DNA from: Ancylomarina euxina
Lineage (GTDB): Bacteria > Bacteroidota > Bacteroidia > Bacteroidales > Marinifilaceae
Assembly: GCF_003863355.1 (NCBI RefSeq)
Contig: NZ_QQWG01000005.1
Span: 1 to 64,000, forward strand
Length of the DNA: 64,000 bases
Direction: 5' to 3'
Below are positions 43,869 to 60,503 of this stretch, one piece after another; the first letter of the stretch is position 1; every line of letters begins with the position of its first letter. The notes under the pieces were generated by a model. It was not told where the DNA came from, searched no databases, and saw nothing but the letters and a program-made list of their open reading frames with translations. The translations under genes were made by a program, and so were the position numbers.

Positions 43869-43899
43869 TTTGGATATTAAAAAAACATCTCTACATTTG
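43869..43899 (+). promoter_or_regulatory. Promoter of the methionine operon
   Basis: TTTG (43869-43872), 19 bases, then TACATTTG (43892-43899): a full match to the Bacteroidota consensus with ideal spacing. Transcription would begin near 43907, about 35 bases before the SAM riboswitch. Confidence 0.8.
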
Positions 43900-43940
43900 C
43901 TCACAGTTATAAGAGAAGAAACCTCGTTTTAGAGGCCATA

Positions 43941-44045
43941 ATTTATACAGAAGAAGTGAGAGAACAGGCTCGATGACCTTCTGACAACCGCGGTACCACA
44001 ACCGAAAGGTGTCAAATCCTGACCAAGTGATTGGTGAATATAAAT
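43941..44045 (+). ncRNA. SAM-I (S-box) riboswitch aptamer
   Basis: The element can be folded into the SAM-I plan. P1 pairs ATTTATA (43941-43947) with TATAAAT (44039-44045). P2 is AGAAG...CTTCT enclosing a GAGAGAACAGGCTCGATGACC core like the conserved SAM-I kink-turn region. GACAACC follows, as do P3 and the GGTGTCAAATCC joining segment resembling the conserved GGTGCCAATTCC. P4 is CCAA-GTGA-TTGG just before P1 closes. It lies upstream of metY and metX, the expected context. Ligand S-adenosylmethionine is by family. The usual adjoining terminator is not directly after P1; a short reading frame starts 8 bases later instead. Confidence 0.9.
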
Positions 44046-44053
44046 TAGAAACT

Positions 44054-44173
44054 ATGAAGACAGAAAATCATTACATCCATCAGGTAGCTCCACAGGAGCT
44101 GAGTTTACATTTGCAATTTCAAAGCATATCTTCTAAGGTAATGCGAATGCAAATGATGATGCGTATGCTGTAA
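44054..44173 (+). CDS. Methionine-rich leader peptide (candidate attenuation uORF)
   Basis: A 39-codon frame starts with ATG 8 bases after the riboswitch P1 stem and ends in TAA. Its last ten residues are MRMQMMMRML: six methionines in ten, three in a row. It is placed between a SAM riboswitch and a methionine operon, which is the pattern expected of a leader peptide whose translation senses methionyl-tRNA. The last Met codons overlap ATGCGT (44159-44164), which can pair with ACGCAT (44173-44178) just after the last Met codons. The N-terminal 29 residues show no known motif. Function is inferred; the frame could also be accidental, though the Met bias at the end is hard to explain by chance. 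Confidence 0.7.
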   Translation: MKTENHYIHQVAPQELSLHLQFQSISSKVMRMQMMMRML

Positions 44174-44301
44174 CGCATTCTGTCTATAAAATTTCCCCTT
44201 TTTTAGATGCCGGTGCGTATAAAACAACTCCGATAAGGGAACTCAAAACCATTATTTTTTGTGATTTATTGTATCTGATTTTTATTCAGAGCAAGGGAAT
44301 T

Positions 44302-44347
44302 GTACAATCTATTTCGAAATAGGATAGTCATCTTAGATGTATTGTAC
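44302..44347 (+). ncRNA. Structured leader element (three-way junction candidate)
   Basis: GTACAAT (44302-44308) pairs with ATTGTAC (44341-44347) and encloses two hairpins, CTATTTCGAAATAG (44309-44322) and CATC-TTA-GATG (44329-44339). It is part of the 300-base leader between the Met-rich frame and metY. Whether it is a regulatory fold is not known; each stem is short. Confidence 0.45.
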
Positions 44348-44375
44348 CTCAGAAAATTAATGTTTTGTGCCAAGC

Positions 44376-44438: not shown

Positions 44439-45797
<1,359 letters not shown>

Positions 45798-45917: not shown

Positions 45918-46931
45918 GTGAATCCAAAACATTTCAAATATAAAGACGGTTTAATCTTGGAGTCTGGATACCGACTAGAAGATATTACCATTGCTTATCA
46001 TACTTATGGGGAGTATAATCCTCAGAAGAATAATGTGATATGGGTTTGCCATGCACTCACAGCCAATTCTGATGTTTTTGATTGGTGGGCAGGTTTGTTT
46101 GGCCAAGAAGATTTCTTTAATCCCAGGGAGCATTTTATTGTTTGTGCCAATATTTTGGGTTCATGCTATGGCAGCACAGGTCCTTTAAGTGAAAATCCAA
46201 ATACAGGAAAACTATTTTACCATGAGTTTCCACAATTGACGGTTCGTGATTTGGTTGCAGCTCACGAATTATTACGAATAGAGTTGGGAATTGATAAAAT
46301 CCACACACTGATTGGGAGTTCATTGGGTGGTATGCAAGCATTAGAATGGGCTTACAACTTGAATGAACACTTGGAACATTTGGTTTTTCTGGCCAGTAAT
46401 GCACAACATTCAGCTTGGGGAATTGCCTTTAACGAATCGCAAAGAATGGCTATTTCAGTTGATTCAACTTGGAAAGAGTCGAATAAAAATGCTGGTTTGG
46501 AAGGAATGAAAACGGCAAGATCGATTGCTTTATTGAGTTATCGGAATTATCAGACCTATCAGGATACGCAAAGCGAAACAGAACCGGATAAGCAGGATGA
46601 TTTTAAAGCCAGTTCTTATCAGAACTATCAAGGACTAAAATTGGCAAATCGTTTTAATGCTTATTCCTATTGGCAGTTGTCAAAAATAATGGATGGGCAT
46701 AATATAGGACGAGGGCGAATTTCATCAAAAAATGCACTCAGTCAGATTGAAGTGAAGACTCTGGTTATTGGTGTAGAGTCTGATTTACTTTTTCCGATAG
46801 CAGAACAAAAGTTTATTGCTCAAAATATTCCTGGAGCTCAATACGCTGAGATTCGTTCTTTGTATGGACACGACGGATTTTTATTGGAGCAAAAACAATT
46901 AACAAAGGTTATTCAATCATTTTATAAATAG
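45918..46931 (+). CDS. metX: Homoserine O-acetyltransferase
   Basis: The 337-residue alpha/beta-hydrolase-fold enzyme acetylates homoserine with acetyl-CoA. The segments YHTYGEYNPQKNNVIWVCHALTANSDV and the nucleophile elbow GSSLGGMQALEW (catalytic Ser) are diagnostic. A catalytic Asp is expected near VIGVESDLLFP, and the catalytic His lies in LYGHDGFLLE. The start codon is GTG at 45918; no ATG fits before the conserved N terminus. The protein is a little shorter than the 350-380-residue family norm. It lies 9 bases before hom. Confidence 0.94.
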   Translation: MNPKHFKYKDGLILESGYRLEDITIAYHTYGEYNPQKNNVIWVCHALTANSDVFDWWAGLFGQEDFFNPREHFIVCANILGSCYGSTGPLSENPNTGKLFYHEFPQLTVRDLVAAHELLRIELGIDKIHTLIGSSLGGMQALEWAYNLNEHLEHLVFLASNAQHSAWGIAFNESQRMAISVDSTWKESNKNAGLEGMKTARSIALLSYRNYQTYQDTQSETEPDKQDDFKASSYQNYQGLKLANRFNAYSYWQLSKIMDGHNIGRGRISSKNALSQIEVKTLVIGVESDLLFPIAEQKFIAQNIPGAQYAEIRSLYGHDGFLLEQKQLTKVIQSFYK

Positions 46932-46940
46932 AACATTGTA

Positions 46941-48131
46941 ATGAGTAAGAAATTAAAAATTGGTGTATTTGGTTTTGGAGTTGTGGGTTCTGGTTTGGCT
47001 CATGTTTTGAAAAACTCTAAGGGGCTCGATGCCTCAATAGTTAAGGTTTGTGTGAAAGATCCGTCTAAGGAACGCGAGTTATCTCCTGAGGTTTTGACTT
47101 TGAATCCAGATGATATTTTGAGTGATCCTGAAATTAATGTTGTTGCTGAATTGATTGATGATGCTGATGAAGCCTATCGTATTGTTAAAACAGCTCTTCA
47201 GAATGGGAAGCATGTGGTATCAGCTAACAAAAAAATGTTGGCTTACCATATAGAAGAATTGATTCAACTACAATGGGAGAACAAGGTGTCATTCCTGTAC
47301 GAAGCCTCAGCTTGTGGTAGTATTCCTATTATTCGTAATCTGGAAGAATATTACGACAATGACTTATTGCAATCGGTAAGTGGTATTCTAAATGGTTCTT
47401 CAAATTATATTTTGACTAAGATTTTTAATGAGAATCTTGATTATCAAGTTGCCTTAAAGCAAGCGCAGGATTTAGGATTTGCCGAGAGTGATCCAACTTC
47501 AGATGTTGAAGGATTCGATACGCTTTATAAGCTGATTATCCTCACCGTTCATGGATTTGGACTTTTTGTTCACCCTGATCAGGTCTTTAATATTGGAATC
47601 TCAAGACTATCGGATAAGGATATTCAATTGGCTTCTCAAAAAGGATACAAAATTCGCTTGCTTGGTAAAGTGACTAAGGTGAATGGAAATCATGTGAATT
47701 TATTGGTTGCACCTAAGTTTGTGAAACCAAAAGAGCACGCTTATACCGTAGAAGATCACTATAACGGTGTTTTAATTCAAGGTAATTTCTACGACAATCA
47801 GTTTATGTATGGAAAAGGAGCAGGTTCGCATCCGACAGGATCGGCAGTTCTTTCAGATATTACCGCTTTAGCTTATAACTATAAGTACGAGTACAAGAAG
47901 TTGAAATATTATGGCGGATTGGAATATACCAATGATATGCCAGTTCAAATTTATCTCAGATACTCTAAAAAAGAAGATTTAGCTCTGTTCAATTTCACTG
48001 AGGTTACTGAGGCTTTAACAGGTAAAGATTTCAATTATGTGATTGGTAATATTAATCTATCAGATTTGATAAAGATTAAAAATCAATTGATTGATAAGGA
48101 TATCTTCTTGGCTTATTTGGGTGACGAATAG
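46941..48131 (+). CDS. hom: Homoserine dehydrogenase
   Basis: The 396-residue enzyme reduces aspartate semialdehyde to homoserine. The Rossmann motif FGFGVVGSGLA is at the N terminus; SANKKMLA, YEASACGSIPIIRNL and GILNGSSNYILTKI are catalytic-domain hallmarks, with Lys and Asp residues near DVEGFDTLYKL. No ACT domain is attached, so feedback control by threonine is not evident. The gene lies between metX and an aspartate kinase gene. Confidence 0.94.
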   Translation: MSKKLKIGVFGFGVVGSGLAHVLKNSKGLDASIVKVCVKDPSKERELSPEVLTLNPDDILSDPEINVVAELIDDADEAYRIVKTALQNGKHVVSANKKMLAYHIEELIQLQWENKVSFLYEASACGSIPIIRNLEEYYDNDLLQSVSGILNGSSNYILTKIFNENLDYQVALKQAQDLGFAESDPTSDVEGFDTLYKLIILTVHGFGLFVHPDQVFNIGISRLSDKDIQLASQKGYKIRLLGKVTKVNGNHVNLLVAPKFVKPKEHAYTVEDHYNGVLIQGNFYDNQFMYGKGAGSHPTGSAVLSDITALAYNYKYEYKKLKYYGGLEYTNDMPVQIYLRYSKKEDLALFNFTEVTEALTGKDFNYVIGNINLSDLIKIKNQLIDKDIFLAYLGDE

Positions 48132-48249: not shown

Positions 48250-49557
48250 ATGATCATATATAAGTTTGGTGGGGTATCGGTAAAAGATGCAGAGGCCATA
48301 AAAAATATCAGTAAAATAATAGGAGAGGTTAATGAACCGCTCACTGTTGTGGTTTCTGCAATTGATAATAGTACCAATTTGTTGGAAGAAATTATTGATG
48401 CACATTATTCGGAGAAGGCAAATGTGAAGCTGTTATTGGAGGATCTAAAGCAGAAACATCTGACTCTGATTCTTGATCTTTTTGATAAATTCCCAAAGAA
48501 TTTACTGACTAAGATTCAGAATCTGTTTTCTGAAATGGAAGCTCGAGTTGTTAAGCCTTTTAGTCAATCCTTTAATTATGAATACGATCAGATGATTGCT
48601 TATGGTGAACTTTTGTCAACTACCATTGTGTCTGCGTATTTCAACCATATCGGGCAAAAAAATATGTGGGTTGATATCAGGACTTGTTTGGATGCAGATG
48701 ATAAATATCGCGATGCTAACATTATTTGGGATAGCTCTGAGGAAAAGGCGAAGAATATATTTAAACCAGATGCCAATCATCTGTTCATCACACAAGGCTT
48801 TATTGCTTCTGATTCTAAAGGGAATGCTTGCTCTCTGGGACGTGAAGGCTCTGATTATACGGCAGCCATTTTAGCTTATTTGTTAGATGCTGAAAAGATG
48901 ATTATTTGGAAAGATGTATTGGGTGTTTTAAATGCTGATCCCGATTATTTTAGCAATACAACTAAGCTCGATTTGATTCCTTATCACGAGGCGATTGAAC
49001 TTTCTTATTATGGTGCGAGTGTGATCCATCCTAAAACAATCAAGCCTCTTCAGGCAAAAGAAATTCCTTTATGGGTGAAATCTTTTATCAAGCCTAAAGA
49101 AGAAGGTACTTTAATCACAAAGGGTGATTTACCTCAACCATTATTGCCTAACTTTATAGTAAAGAAGCAGCAGGTTTTGATCAGTATTAAATCTCACAAC
49201 TTTTCTTTCATTGGGGAGAACGATTTATTTTTCGTATTTTCTCTAATCAATAAGTATGGTGTGAAGCTGAACTTTACGCAGAATACTGCGGTTAGTTTTG
49301 TCTTCTGTGTCAATCACTCTTTTCGATTTATAGAAGGACTTATTGATGATTTGAAACTGAAATACGATGTAGAGCGTGAAGATGGTTTGGAGTTGATAAC
49401 AGTTAGACATTATTCACCTGATACGCTTGCTGAGATTACTGAAAATCATCAGATATTAATTGAGCAAAAAAATAAGAACACTGCTATATTTTTAAGTCAA
49501 GGAACTCAGGAAATCCCTCTTGAGGACTGTTGCTGTTTACAAGAAAAAAGACAATAA
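48250..49557 (+). CDS. lysC: Aspartate kinase
   Basis: The 435-residue enzyme phosphorylates aspartate, the first step toward methionine, threonine and lysine. It has the KFGGVSV start, the [10 protein letters not shown] catalytic segment (amino-acid kinase fold), and a C-terminal part with ACT-like repeats (from about residue 300, [15 protein letters not shown]). It is a monofunctional form, since hom is encoded separately upstream. The methionine-operon position suggests an isozyme devoted to methionine. Its stop is 1 base before the metH start. Confidence 0.92.
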
Positions 49558-49558
49558 G

Positions 49559-52500
49559 ATGACATCGATTAAGGACAGACTAAAGGATCAAATATTGGTT
49601 TTAGATGGTGCTATGGGAACCATGGTTCAAGCTTTTGAATTATCTGAATCAGATTTTAGAGGAGTGCGTTTTGCCAATTCTAGCTTTGATCAGAAAGGGC
49701 ATAACGATTTGCTGACACTGACGAAGCCAGAAATCATCAAATCGATTCATCGAGATTTTCTTAAAGCAGGAGCGCATATAGTCGAAACCAATACATTTAA
49801 TTCCAATGCGATTTCTCTTATCGATTACGGATTGGAAGATTTGGCTTACGAATTAAATTTTGAAGCAGCTAAGAATGCTCGAGAAGTTGTCAAAGAAATT
49901 CTGGAGAAAGATCCTTTGACTCCTCGTTGGATAGCAGGTGCAATTGGTCCTACCAATAAAACAGCATCTATGTCGCCAAAGGTCGAAGATCCGGGTTATC
50001 GCGATGTGAATTTTGATGATTTGGTTCAGATTTATGCAGAGCAAATTAATGGGTTGATTGATGGTGGTGTTGATGTTTTATTGATTGAAACCATATTCGA
50101 TACGCTGAATGCGAAGGCTGCTGTTTTTGCTGCAGATGAAATCCTAACCGAAAGAGATCTTGATATACCTATAATGCTTTCGGGTACCATTACGGATAAT
50201 AGTGGAAGAACACTTTCTGGTCAAACACTCGAGGCTTTTGTAACATCAATGAAATCGGATAGACTATTAAGTTTAGGTTTGAATTGTGCTTTTGGAGCAA
50301 AGGATCTGGTGCCTTATATTGAACAATTGGATAAATTGATTCCAGTATATGTGAGTGTGTATCCGAATGCAGGTTTACCCAATGAATTAGGCGAGTACGA
50401 CGAAACGGCAGAAACAATGACTTCTGATCTTCATGTCCTCTTGAAGGGTGAGAAGATTAATATCGTTGGAGGATGTTGTGGTACGCGCCCCGAGCATATT
50501 CGCGCATTGGCTGTAGCAGTAAAGAATGAAAAGCCTCGTCAGTTACCTGTTATAGAACCAGAAACCCGTTTGAGTGGACTTGAATTGTTAAGAATCAATT
50601 CACTGTCCAATTTTGTGAACATTGGTGAAAGAACCAATGTGTCGGGATCAAGAAAATTTGCTCGTTTAATTGGTGAAAAGAAATATGAGGAAGCCCTCTC
50701 TATTGCTCGTCATCAGGTTGAGAATGGAGCTCAGATTATTGATGTGAGCATGGATGATGCCATGTTGGATGCTGAGGCCGAAATGGAAATTTTCTTGAAG
50801 CTTCTTGTGTCAGAACCGGAAATTTCTCGTGTGCCTATCATGATTGACTCATCAAAATGGTCAGTTCTTGAAACGGGATTAAAATGTGTACAAGGTAAAT
50901 GCGTGGTTAACTCCATTTCGATGAAAGAGGGTGAAGCTGAATTTATCAAACAGGCTTGTAAAATAAAGCAATATGGTGCTGCGGCTGTTATTATGGCATT
51001 CGACGAAAGAGGACAGGCTGATACTTATGAAAGACGCATTGAAATTTGCGGAAGAGCTTATAAAATATTAACAGAAGTTGTCAATTTCCCTCCTGAAGAT
51101 ATCATTTTTGATCCCAATGTGTTGGCAATTGCAACAGGAATCGAGGAGCATAATAATTATGCGGTCGACTTTATTAAAACCGTGACATGGATTAAGGCCA
51201 ACTTGCCATATGCGAAAATAAGTGGTGGTATTAGTAACCTATCGTTCTCGTTCCGAGGAAATAATATGGTTCGAGAAGCCATGCATTCTGTCTTTCTTTA
51301 TTATGCCATAAAGGAAGGTCTCGATATGGGTATTGTAAATCCAGGCATGTTGCAGATTTACGATGAGATTGAACCTGAACTATTAAAGCGAGTCGAAGAT
51401 GTTGTTCTCAATCGTCATCCCGAAGCAACTGAGCAGTTGATAGAATTTGCCGAAAGTGTAAAGTTGGAAAGCAAAACCCAGGTGAGGATTGATGCTTGGA
51501 GAGAGAAATCTTGCAAGGAGCGTTTGTCTTATTCATTGGTAAAAGGAATTACCGATTATATCGATGCCGATGCAGAAGAAGCTCGTCAGAATTATCCGAG
51601 AGCTCTCGAAGTGATTGAAGGTCCTTTGATGGACGGGATGAATATTGTTGGTGATCTCTTTGGAGAAGGAAAAATGTTTTTGCCGCAAGTGGTTAAATCT
51701 GCCAGAGTGATGAAAAAAGCAGTGGCTTACCTTCAACCTTTTATCGAGGAGGAGAAAAAAGGATTAGCCGCTAGTCATACAGGTAAAATTCTGATGGCTA
51801 CCGTTAAAGGTGATGTTCACGATATTGGTAAAAATATTGTAGGCGTTGTATTGGGTTGCAACAATTTCGAGGTCATTGACCTTGGTGTTATGGTGACCTG
51901 TTCTAAAATATTAGAAGTGGCTGTTTCAGAAAATGTCGATGCCATTGGTTTAAGTGGTTTGATAACACCTTCCCTTGAAGAGATGGTTTTTGTAGCCAAA
52001 GAGATGGAACGTTTGGGCCTAAATATTCCTTTGGTTGTGGGAGGTGCAACTACATCGGAGTTGCATACGGCTGTTAAAATTGAACAAAACTATTCGGGTG
52101 GCGTGGTATATGTTAGCGATGCTTCAAAATCGGTTGGCGTATTCAAAAGCTTATGCAATAAAGATAAACGAGAAGCTTATCTGAAAGAAATTCACAATAA
52201 GTACGAAGATATTCGTGAGGCTTATGCCAAAGAAAAATCGGCAGAATACTTTACGATAGAACAAGCTCGTGCTAATAAGGAGAAAATTGATTGGAAGACG
52301 TCTCCAATTTATAGGGCGAATAAACTTGGCTTGCAGGTCGAACGCAATTTTCCAGTAAGCGAAATACGTCAGTATATCGATTGGACTTTCTTTTTTGTGG
52401 CTTGGGAGCTTAAGTGCATGTATCCTGAAATCCTGGAGGATCCTCAATATAAGGATGAGGCTAAAAAGTTATTCGACGATGCCAATTTGATGTTGGATGA

Positions 52501-53212
52501 GATTGAAGAAAAGAATCTAATTGAAGCAGCTGCCGTTTTCGGTATGTTCCCAGCCAATGCTCTTGGCGATGATATTATTATCTATTCCGATGAGAAGAGA
52601 AGTGCGGAACTGACTCGCTTTACCAATCTGCGTCAGCAAGAAAAGTTCCCTAAAGAATTGAGTAACCTTTGTTTATCAGACTTTGTTGCTCCGGTTGAAT
52701 CGAATCGGATTGATTATGTAGGTGCATTTGTTGCCACTGCAGGATTGGGAATCGAAGAAAGTTTGGCAAAATATGCTGCGGATTTGGATGATTACAAGAG
52801 TATCATGATTAAGATACTTGCAGACAGGTTAGCTGAGGCTTATACGGAATTGCTTCACGACAGAGTCAGAAGGCAAGATTGGGGGTATGCTCCCAATGAA
52901 GATCTAACTATTGAAGAAAAACTACGAGAAAAGTATCAGGGGATTCGACCTGCTTTTGGTTATCCTTCCTTACCAGAACATTCCGAAAAACAAGTGCTTT
53001 GGGACTTCTTGAATGTGGAGGAAAATATTGGTGCAATTCTTACTGAGAATTTTGCCATGTATCCAACCGCAACGGTAAGTGGTCTGTACTTTGCGCATCC
53101 CGATGCACTTTATTTCAGTATAGGTAAAATTCAAGATGACCAGATTAAAGATTATGCAAATAGACGTCATATGGCTGAAGAGCAAGCTCAACAATATCTG
53201 AGATCATTATAA
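49559..53212 (+). CDS. metH: Cobalamin-dependent methionine synthase
   Basis: The 1217-residue enzyme transfers methyl from 5-methyl-tetrahydrofolate to homocysteine through cobalamin. The true start is the ATG one base after the lysC stop. Domains in order: homocysteine/zinc domain (residues 1-330, with GLNCAFG and GGCCGTRP supplying zinc cysteines), pterin-binding domain (about 345-620, [11 protein letters not shown]), cap and B12 domain (about 640-880, with DVHDIGKN and His754 as cobalt ligand), and the AdoMet activation domain (about 895-1217, ending with [14 protein letters not shown]). All domains are complete. B12 must be imported or made; no B12 gene is in the window. Confidence 0.97.
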
Positions 53213-53278: not shown

Positions 53279-53293
53279 ATTTTGACAAAAGAA

Positions 53294-54253
53294 ATGAAAG
53301 TAATAGACCATATCAACCAAGCTATAGAAAATAGAACCACACATTTTTCTTTCGAGCTGCTGCCTCCACGCAAAGGGAATAGTATTTATAAGGTATTCGA
53401 TACCATAGATAAGCTTAAGGAATTCGACCCGAAGTATATTAACATTACATCACATTGCGACGAAGTGATTTTTGCTGAATCAGCAAATGGTACTTTCCAA
53501 AAAAAACTGACCAACAAACGACCTGGGACGGTTGCTGTTGCTGCAGCGATAAAGAATAAATATAAAGTTACTGTTGTGCCTCATGTTATCTGTCAGGGTT
53601 TTACACCAGAGGAGACCGAGAATGCTCTAATTGACTTAAATTTTCTGGATATTCAGGATCTTCTTCTTTTAAAAGGGGACTCATCAAAACGTCATGAGTT
53701 TGCGGCTAAGGAATCGGGACATCATTATGCTATCGATCTTATCGAACAAGTTAATCAGATTAATAGAGGAGAATACCTGGATGGAACACATACTGAGGCT
53801 TTCGATACTCCATTTTCATATGGAGTGGCAGGTTATCCAGAAAAGCATGAAGAGGCTCCTAATCTCGATTCAGATATTTATTTTCTAAAGAAAAAGGTAG
53901 ACGCAGGAGCTGATTATATTGTAACGCAGATGTTCTTTGATAATCAAAAGTTCTTTGAGTTTGAAAAAAAGATTCGTGCGGCAGGTATAACCGTACCATT
54001 GATTCCTGGAATAAAGCCAATTTCTGCTCTTAGTCAATTAAATTTATTACCTCAGGTTTTCAAAGTTGATATTCCTGAAGTATTAGCTGCCGAAGTTAGA
54101 AAGTGCAAAACGAATGAACAGGTTAAAGCGCTTGGTACCGAATGGGGTATTCATCAGAGTAAGGAGCTTATAAAACACGGGGTACCGTCACTGCATTTTT
54201 ATTCTTTTATGGCAAGTAATTGTGTTAGAGATATTGCTAAGGTAATCTTCTAA
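53294..54253 (+). CDS. metF: 5,10-methylenetetrahydrofolate reductase
   Basis: The start is the ATG giving MKVIDHINQ, chosen over a TTG at 53282 that would sit on the 3' side of the hairpin. The 319-residue enzyme makes 5-methyl-tetrahydrofolate, the methyl donor for MetH. The N-terminal catalytic Glu is in FSFELLPPRKG; the FAD-binding segment is near LLLLKGD, and FGVAGYP-like SYGVAGYPEKHEEA and TQMFFDNQ are conserved. It is the last gene of the operon. Confidence 0.95.
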   Translation: MKVIDHINQAIENRTTHFSFELLPPRKGNSIYKVFDTIDKLKEFDPKYINITSHCDEVIFAESANGTFQKKLTNKRPGTVAVAAAIKNKYKVTVVPHVICQGFTPEETENALIDLNFLDIQDLLLLKGDSSKRHEFAAKESGHHYAIDLIEQVNQINRGEYLDGTHTEAFDTPFSYGVAGYPEKHEEAPNLDSDIYFLKKKVDAGADYIVTQMFFDNQKFFEFEKKIRAAGITVPLIPGIKPISALSQLNLLPQVFKVDIPEVLAAEVRKCKTNEQVKALGTEWGIHQSKELIKHGVPSLHFYSFMASNCVRDIAKVIF

Positions 54254-60290: not shown

Positions 60291-60331
60291 CATCGAAGCA
60301 AGACGTAATAGTTTGTTTCAACATATTTATT

Positions 60332-60443
60332 GTTTCTTCAGGGCAGGGTGAAATTCCCGACCGGCGGTGATAGTCCGCGAATCGAAAGATTGAACTGGTG
60401 TGATTCCAGTACCGACAGTAGAGTCTGGATGGAAGAAGAAAAC
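60332..60443 (+). ncRNA. FMN riboswitch (RFN element)
   Basis: The RFN consensus is almost word for word: CAGGGCAGGGTGAAATTCCCGACC, then GGCGGTGATAGTCCGCG, then the GTGTGATTCCAGTACCGACAG region and the closing GTCTGGATGGAAGAAG, which pairs with TTCTTC at the start (each segment is given separately). It binds FMN and controls the operon below by a terminator some 60 bases downstream, as in Bacillus-type transcription control. Confidence 0.97.
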
Positions 60444-60503
60444 AAGCATCCAATTTGGTTGATGTTTCCATTGGGGGTATTCCCATTGGTTGATGATATT
60501 ATT

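Follow-up and report, generated by a model that had tools for sequence, protein, structure and literature searches.

How a single transcript leader might report on both S-adenosylmethionine (SAM) and methionine is the question raised by the methionine operon of Ancylomarina euxina, where a SAM riboswitch is followed directly by a short frame ending in a run of methionine codons. The trp, his and ilv leader peptides are ribosome-mediated attenuators, in which codons for the amino acid made by the operon are read by a translating ribosome. A first-pass annotation of the window, that is, of the whole 64,000-nucleotide stretch of A. euxina DNA analysed here, had proposed that riboswitch and leader frame occupy one transcript and together sense cofactor and charged tRNA. 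The analysis below examines the locus itself, the distribution of its two elements among Bacteroidota, the alternative pairings open to the leader RNA, and the known systems that it resembles.

The methionine operon leader of Ancylomarina euxina

All elements of the locus lie on the forward strand. The likely promoter (43869 to 43899), read from the sequence as TTTG, 19 nucleotides and TACATTTG, matches what we take to be the Bacteroidota -33/-7 consensus, and a similar box lies upstream in 12 aligned leaders. Downstream is a SAM-I (S-box) riboswitch aptamer (43940 to 44046), which scores 74.4 bits against Rfam family RF00162, whose gathering cut-off is 44.4. A spacer of 7 nucleotides (44047 to 44053) separates the aptamer from the leader peptide ORF (44054 to 44173), which comprises 39 codons and a stop, runs from the ATG at 44054 to the TAA at 44171-44173, and translates as MKTENHYIHQVAPQELSLHLQFQSISSKVMRMQMMMRML. 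Its tail, MRMQMMMRML, holds six methionines in the final ten residues, three of them consecutive. The first-pass annotation was right about the aptamer, the frame and its tail, and Pfam domains agree with the gene order that it gave, metY-metX-hom-lysC-metH-metF. The genes are metY, of O-acetylhomoserine sulfhydrylase type (44481 to 45797, PF01053, the exact enzyme name being taken from context; its product is 96% identical to MetY of Ancylomarina sp. DW003); metX (45918 to 46931), which PF00561 identifies only as an alpha/beta hydrolase and context names; hom, encoding homoserine dehydrogenase (46941 to 48131, PF00742); lysC, aspartate kinase (48250 to 49557, PF00696 amino acid kinase, named from context); metH, B12-dependent methionine synthase (49559 to 53212, PF02965, PF02574 and PF00809); and metF, methylenetetrahydrofolate reductase (53282 to 54253, PF02219).

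Two further features of the window were observed in passing. Within the interval between leader and metY, at about 44290-44370, a TTGTAC...TTTGTG-like stretch recurs by eye in 12 aligned loci whose surroundings differ, and may mark another promoter or a site for a regulator. Elsewhere in the window lies an FMN riboswitch (60330-60444, forward strand, RF00050, 119 bits); the ORFs on the first ATGs behind it carry no Met-rich tail.

Coding selection on the leader frame

The window peptide was matched in 17 of the 58 relatives' genomes searched, its own included. Twelve of these matches lie directly behind a SAM-I aptamer; the five weakest (E 0.23-0.97) have no SAM-I and were taken as chance. The 12 frames are 37-40 codons long, their internal gaps are multiples of three, and metY follows in all 12. 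SAM-I passes the cut-off in 42 of the 56 genomes of the window's family, at 46 places, and at 42 of these places an adjacent ORF has, on our own reading, a Met-rich end. The four exceptions are L058 and L059, which end in RMR, and L146 and L157, both ahead of sulfite reductase, where Cys/Met frames lie further on.

For wider comparison, RF00162 was searched in overlapping draws of 295 genomes of the order (87 over the cut-off), 345 of the class (245) and 345 of the phylum (280). The order set consists of all 141 SAM-I places over the cut-off from order and family; among the matches listed, the class set comprises 69 places outside the order and the phylum set 46 places of other classes, both picked from high-scoring SAM-I hits, with many families represented once. 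A frame of 10-60 codons opens on the first ATG within 40 nucleotides at 110 of the 141 order places. With one leader taken per genus (54 of 69 genera), internal ATGs fall 134, 9 and 8 times in frames 0, 1 and 2 of the leader, as against 10, 14 and 7 times in the class and phylum samples (17 families); scored by the majority frame of each genus, the ATGs are in frame in 46 genera, out of frame in 2 and tied in 2, and 4 have none. Methionine makes up 22% of the last ten codons but 1.3% of those before them, again with one leader for each of the 54 genera, and 43% of these leaders have at least three Met in the last 12 codons, compared with 0.06% of ORFs after dinucleotide-preserving shuffles, in which on average 31 of the 54 shuffled sequences yielded an ORF to score. 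Substitutions point the same way: the pooled pN/pS is 0.34 over 42 of 46 equal-length within-genus pairs (four under 70% identity were dropped), although the pairs are not independent and, because RNA structure also constrains the ORF, the ratio is not pure coding evidence. A sign of such RNA-level constraint, added to that of coding, is the choice of arginine codons, which in the order set are CGN in 62 of 67 cases within the last 8 codons and in 34 of 54 in the remainder of the ORF.

Comparison among relatives thus shows a frame that is, to judge from its codons and gaps, under coding selection. The check proposed in the first-pass annotation, namely whether relatives keep the frame and its Met run with synonymous changes favoured, came out in favour of a SAM riboswitch and a methionine leader frame on one transcript, with frame and tail conserved and the ATGs held in register. 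Two side observations concern the form of the unit. At L004/L056 (genome G024, contig 8) an Ancylomarina-type cassette, from the aptamer through GGGAACTCAAA, stands by eye inside flanks typical of that genome's own, different genus, as though riboswitch and leader had been exchanged together in one piece. A terminal Arg-Met-Arg-stop with no long Met run before it is found in leaders of Sphingobacterium and in several others (L330, L333, L334, L344 and L351, and L037, L059, L081 and L083 in the order set).

Distribution of riboswitch and leader

The 115 control places of the class and phylum sets had suggested a leader specific to the window's order, a reading that was rejected through a metY-based sample and a gene-specific control. 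The contrast between order and controls is largely one of gene, because 43 of the 69 class places precede metH and 14 a metB-type gene, and 35 of the 46 phylum places precede metY outside the class, so that the controls are mostly metH, metB-type and distant metY. The metY-based sample consists of 80 loci in named genomes, the best 80 of 593, with SAM-I at 49 (7/20, 16/20, 14/20 and 12/20 in successive batches). At one of these, L301, metY itself starts 10 nucleotides behind the aptamer, and this locus was left out of the 48 analysable SAM-I leaders. An ORF with at least four Met/Cys in its last 12 codons was found in 35 of the 48, where shuffling predicts 0.3, and 13 were without one; among the 31 loci of the same best 80 that have no SAM-I, 12 carry such an ORF and shuffles give 0.4. 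Since these 12 carry the leader alone, the Met/Cys leader is an independent module.

Among the SAM-I loci of these best 80 of 593 (L301 included in the denominators), leader-positive cases number 5/6 in Marinilabiliales/Bacteroidales, 15/21 in Sphingobacteriales, 4/7 in Cytophagales, 7/11 in Chitinophagales, 2/2 in Flavobacteriales and 2/2 unplaced. The order of most loci was presumed from record titles, two genera having been looked up. Seven loci are titled Pedobacter and seven Sphingobacterium, and with such close relatives among them the loci do not count as independent events. In the leaders methionine is accompanied or replaced by cysteine, as is evident from the tails CMCMCCCCC in Mucilaginibacter straminoryzae, MCCCCCC in Cesiribacter and MMCCMCCCMY in a Flavobacteriales MAG, among others.

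A separate observation concerns eight loci (L303, L307, L309, L320, L322, L325, L347 and L348) in which a Cys/Met leader lies 131-358 nucleotides downstream of SAM-I. Seven are Chitinophagales and one is an unplaced MAG (L303), and five of the eight end in CMP. Given these distances, the aptamer and leader modules are not always adjacent.

Leader tails and the genes that follow them

The gene-specific control searched the whole stretch from aptamer to gene, with a cut-off of at least four Met/Cys in the last 12 codons. Places where the gene starts directly behind the aptamer, where the leader is shorter than 60 nucleotides or where the gene was not recognised could not be scored (metH 8, 13 and 3; metB type 1; metX 1; others 2 and 3). 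At this cut-off the tail is present in SAM-I leaders before metY at 32/56 places in the order and 4/6 in the class sample but 0/35 outside the class, before HcyBio at 18/22 (order), before lysC-like genes at 6/12 in the order and 0/1 outside the class, and before a Na+/H+-antiporter-family transporter and sulfite reductase at 2/2 each (order). Before metX it is found at 1/4 order places, 0/1 analysable in the class and 0/4 outside. SAM-I leaders before metH have no such tail (0/25 in the order, 0/30 in the class and 0/2 outside), and neither do those before metB-type genes (0/6, 0/14 and 0/1, respectively) or hom (0/1 and 0/1). With the cut-off lowered to two and the adjacent ORF considered, 89 of the 141 order places qualify, including metY 48/56 (8 of 56 thus falling short), HcyBio 19/22 and metH 10/33, and because of these metH cases the contrast between metY and metH is a matter of degree.

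Comparison across genes shows that a Met/Cys tail at the end of the frame precedes sulfur-assimilating and methionine genes. The arrangement therefore extends beyond what the first-pass annotation described, in its Cys codons, in the HcyBio, lysC-like, sulfite reductase and transporter genes that it precedes, and in its presence in several Bacteroidota orders. The recurrence of tails before such genes bears on the proposal that the product is an arrest peptide that senses SAM or methionine directly as a nascent chain, or else a Met/Cys-rich metal-binding microprotein. Constraint at the amino-acid level would suit either, and Met/Cys tails resemble metal ligands, but the peptide bodies vary freely from genus to genus, what recurs being Met/Cys close to the stop, and the tails stand before sulfur and methionine genes; we consider a peptide that acts as such very unlikely.

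The sulfite reductase leaders deserve separate description. At L146 and L157, the second SAM-I place of genomes G024 and G333, the aptamer is followed by an ORF with a Cys run, a hairpin, a second ORF with MMCCICCMCCCMR, and sulfite reductase. The hairpin after the Cys run is clean, has a U-tract and resembles an intrinsic terminator, and the second frame stands before a cysteine-pathway gene, so that this one leader possibly contains three sensors. Searched in the 58 relatives' genomes, the leader has a good match in its own source only (3.5e-28); 13 other genomes gave E values of 0.01-0.1, taken as chance.

Spacing between aptamer and frame

The first ATG lies 7-16 nucleotides behind the aptamer at 112 of 141 order places, as against 4 of 69 in the class and 2 of 46 in the phylum, a contrast that has the same gene bias as the control sets themselves, these being mostly metH and metB genes and metY of a distant class. 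At seven order places the first ATG is that of metH itself, 11-20 nucleotides behind the aptamer, about the spacing of the leaders. A direct metB-type start 11 nucleotides behind the aptamer (L019) was set aside, its start being non-ATG and its alignment beginning at residue 38. The simplest reading of this spacing is that SAM-I would control initiation at the first frame behind it, and before metY that frame is the leader. Leaders of Chitinophagales are 131-344 nucleotides from the aptamer, and at that distance gating by proximity cannot hold, so that another coupling is needed.

The preserved first-ATG spacing would also be expected if translation of the leader mattered without its Met/Cys codons acting as a sensor, the riboswitch setting translation and translation shielding the transcript from Rho or decay. 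Terminator candidates are few, some leaders retain only RMR, and the Mbox-uORF of Mycobacterium tuberculosis is a precedent (PMC12810186). Such shielding leaves unexplained, however, both the clustering of Met/Cys in the last 12 codons and the absence of tails with at least four Met/Cys before metH and metB-type genes, and we regard it as unlikely, if the least so of the alternatives weighed here.

Alternative pairings in the leader RNA

Comparison of leaders shows that the RNA past the stop codon has two predicted, alternative partners, the Met codons and a segment further downstream. In the window, segment c (ACGCAUUCUGUCUA, 44173 to 44186) starts in the stop codon and can pair upstream with segment b (44141 to 44167), which holds the Met codons at 44141, 44147, 44153, 44156, 44159 and 44165 and within which AUGCGU (44159-44164) is able to pair with c, and with segment a (AGACAGAA, 44058 to 44065), which is weakly supported and varies in genus g13; alternatively, c pairs with segment d (UAGAUGCCGGUGCGU, 44204 to 44218) at -11.9 kcal/mol. 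In the free leader, the predicted partners of c lie upstream, at the start of the ORF and in the Met codons (P 0.88), and c:d has a probability of 0.08. Placing a ribosome on any one of internal Met codons one to five gives c:d probabilities of 0.32 to 0.99; an initiating ribosome alone gives 0.59, and one that has reached the last Met codon (44165) or the stop gives 0. With a shorter 3' end, the stalled value reaches 0.74.

Among 19 window-type leaders, the mean probability of c:d is 0.25 when free, 0.60 at the best stall and 0.00 at the stop, and a strict switch, defined by c:d of no more than 0.3 when free and no less than 0.7 when stalled, is found in 2 of the 19. In the close relative L055, c:d reaches only 0.05 when stalled, and in 7 of the 19 (genera g10 and g13) it is already 0.40-0.91 when free. 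In the window, c:d has an energy of -11.9 where 200 shuffles average -6.2, but one or more of these are stronger (minimum -15.0), and its b:c pairing does not differ significantly from shuffles (fraction 0.20). Five SAM-less Marinilabiliales leaders (Thermophagus, Plebeiobacterium, Carboxylicivirga and two others) keep c:d with altered letters, for example an A-U pair changed to G-C (pairs read by eye), at energies of -16.5 to -20.4 kcal/mol where the shuffled means are -5.2 to -7.7. Few if any shuffles equal the pairing of their Met codons with c (fraction 0.00-0.09). These comparisons were made by anchored segments and duplex energies because alignment with the SAM-less relatives left segment d unaligned. 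Within the window's type, the 18 distinct sequences are too conserved to show covariation of b:c or c:d, with no two-sided change in c:d, and a generic switch index exceeds shuffles (p<=0.05) in 15 of 85 leaders and 2 of 26 controls. The predicted pairing switch is thus well supported in the SAM-less Marinilabiliales clade, suggestive in the window and unproved in other leaders.

Within the ORF itself, a hairpin of seven pairs (44085 to 44101) is terminator-like by the terminator scan, whose one forward-strand match it is. Three of its seven pairs change on both sides; the covariation over 18 leaders is as high in none of 500 shuffles, and 13 of the 18 are without three of the seven pairs. This hairpin is possibly a pause or termination signal within the ORF. 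After the window leader no convincing intrinsic terminator emerged from the terminator scan, from our own scan or from local folds, and a terminator scan with loose criteria gave a positive result for 16 of 106 leaders. A hairpin formed by d and downstream sequence (d:e) beats shuffles in the SAM-less leaders L281, L287, L299 and L285 and is about equal to them in L284 and in the window. Of the attenuation reading offered in the first-pass annotation, the run of Met codons near the end of the frame stood; an intrinsic terminator after the window leader was not found, and the would-be terminator hairpin in the window folds no better than shuffles.

These pairings raise a different possibility, that the Met run arises as a side effect of RNA structure, with AUGCG repeats kept for their pairing with CGCAU past the stop and translation of no consequence. 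AUGCG:CGCAU pairs do occur in the predicted folds, and both the CGN bias of the last eight codons and the covarying hairpin inside the ORF speak for constraint on the RNA. Pairing alone, however, would not hold the ATGs to the frame of the start codon as they are held here and not in the class and phylum samples, nor would it account for cysteine joining or replacing methionine in relatives, for the low pN/pS, or for a tail that tracks the identity of the gene and not the aptamer. We attach little probability to this explanation.

A proposed serial two-input model

The reading that we consider probable is that of a translated leader peptide whose C-terminal Met codons, or Met and Cys codons in many relatives, report charged tRNA, in series behind SAM-I. 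When SAM is bound, helix P1 would close 7 nucleotides from the AUG and hinder initiation of the leader; when SAM is low, the leader would be translated. Were Met-tRNA then short, the ribosome would stall in the Met run, b:c would be blocked, c:d would form and the operon would be on, and with methionine plentiful a ribosome at the stop codon would cover c and expression would stay low. As no intrinsic terminator follows the leader, Rho-dependent termination of the untranslated leader is the best guess for the 'off' output in this genus.

The broader proposal, to which we give about even chances, is of a Bacteroidota-wide serial RNA switch with two inputs, in which SAM-I first controls the leader peptide, so that scarcity of SAM licenses a sensor of Met- or Cys-tRNA charging, and in which the two modules are separable. 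The combinations observed are the aptamer alone before metH, the leader alone before metY, and both before metY, HcyBio and lysC-like genes.

Relation to known regulatory systems

Each component of this arrangement has a published counterpart. In the met operon of Xanthomonas campestris, a SAM-I riboswitch also senses uncharged initiator tRNA, and like the window it combines SAM-I with a second, methionyl-tRNA input before methionine genes; there the expression platform binds the tRNA itself, whereas in the window the second input is an ORF with Met/Cys codons (PMC7270179). The Mbox of M. tuberculosis, where regulation acts primarily on a uORF and termination depends on Rho (PMC12810186), and a B12 riboswitch-uORF in a leader of the same organism (PMC11260477) resemble the window in having a riboswitch and a small upstream ORF in the leader, but they belong to another phylum and respond to other ligands, and the relevant passages of the two reports mention no run of codons for a pathway amino acid.

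The window also resembles attenuators, in which a short ORF is enriched in codons for the amino acid that the genes behind it serve. A metL leader predicted before metNIQ in Streptomyces lividans ends in GARCMCRRMCAF, almost like the tails here, its termination being called unclear (PMC8079986), and Rhodobacterales have a Cys uORF before cysS (PMC8632094). The passages on these two leaders mention no riboswitch, whereas the window has SAM-I. Classical attenuators have an intrinsic terminator; because one was searched for after the window leader and not found, the arrangement is not classed as a trp-type attenuator, although it may well work like one. Mycobacterial polycysteine short ORFs, with contiguous Cys codons, reportedly act as Cys-responsive attenuators. 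These ORFs (Canestrari 2020, as cited in PMC9031893) are like the leaders here in having contiguous Cys codons in a short ORF, but they are leaderless and belong to another phylum, and the citing passage refers to no riboswitch. The 5' UTRs of Bacteroides thetaiotaomicron contain sORFs described as reminiscent of leader peptides (PMC7366714).

The relevant parts of PMC4833913 and PMC11109978 hold nothing closer to SAM-I with a Met/Cys leader, and no paper on a Met/Cys leader peptide behind a SAM riboswitch in Bacteroidota was found among the titles and abstract beginnings listed by searches of open-access full text. The first-pass annotation knew of no established description either, and within this literature that still holds. 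As far as searched, then, riboswitch-uORF units, SAM-I with tRNA, a Met leader and poly-Cys attenuators are each published and their combination is undescribed.

Implications for methionine control in Bacteroidota

Many Bacteroidota seem to control their methionine-making genes through one leader in which a SAM riboswitch and, behind it, an ORF ending in Met/Cys serve as successive sensors. Riboswitches and codon-reading leaders are usually treated as alternatives; here they appear combined, and recombined across several orders. Since metH is mostly without the leader and metY mostly with it, the phylum provides a gene-by-gene natural experiment, and a direct test would be offered of how cells weigh a cofactor, SAM, against the amino acids Met and Cys. 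Many of the leader ORFs deserve annotation. Bacteroidota are said to rely little on Shine-Dalgarno initiation, and the arrangement suggests what a riboswitch may target in bacteria that make little use of it.
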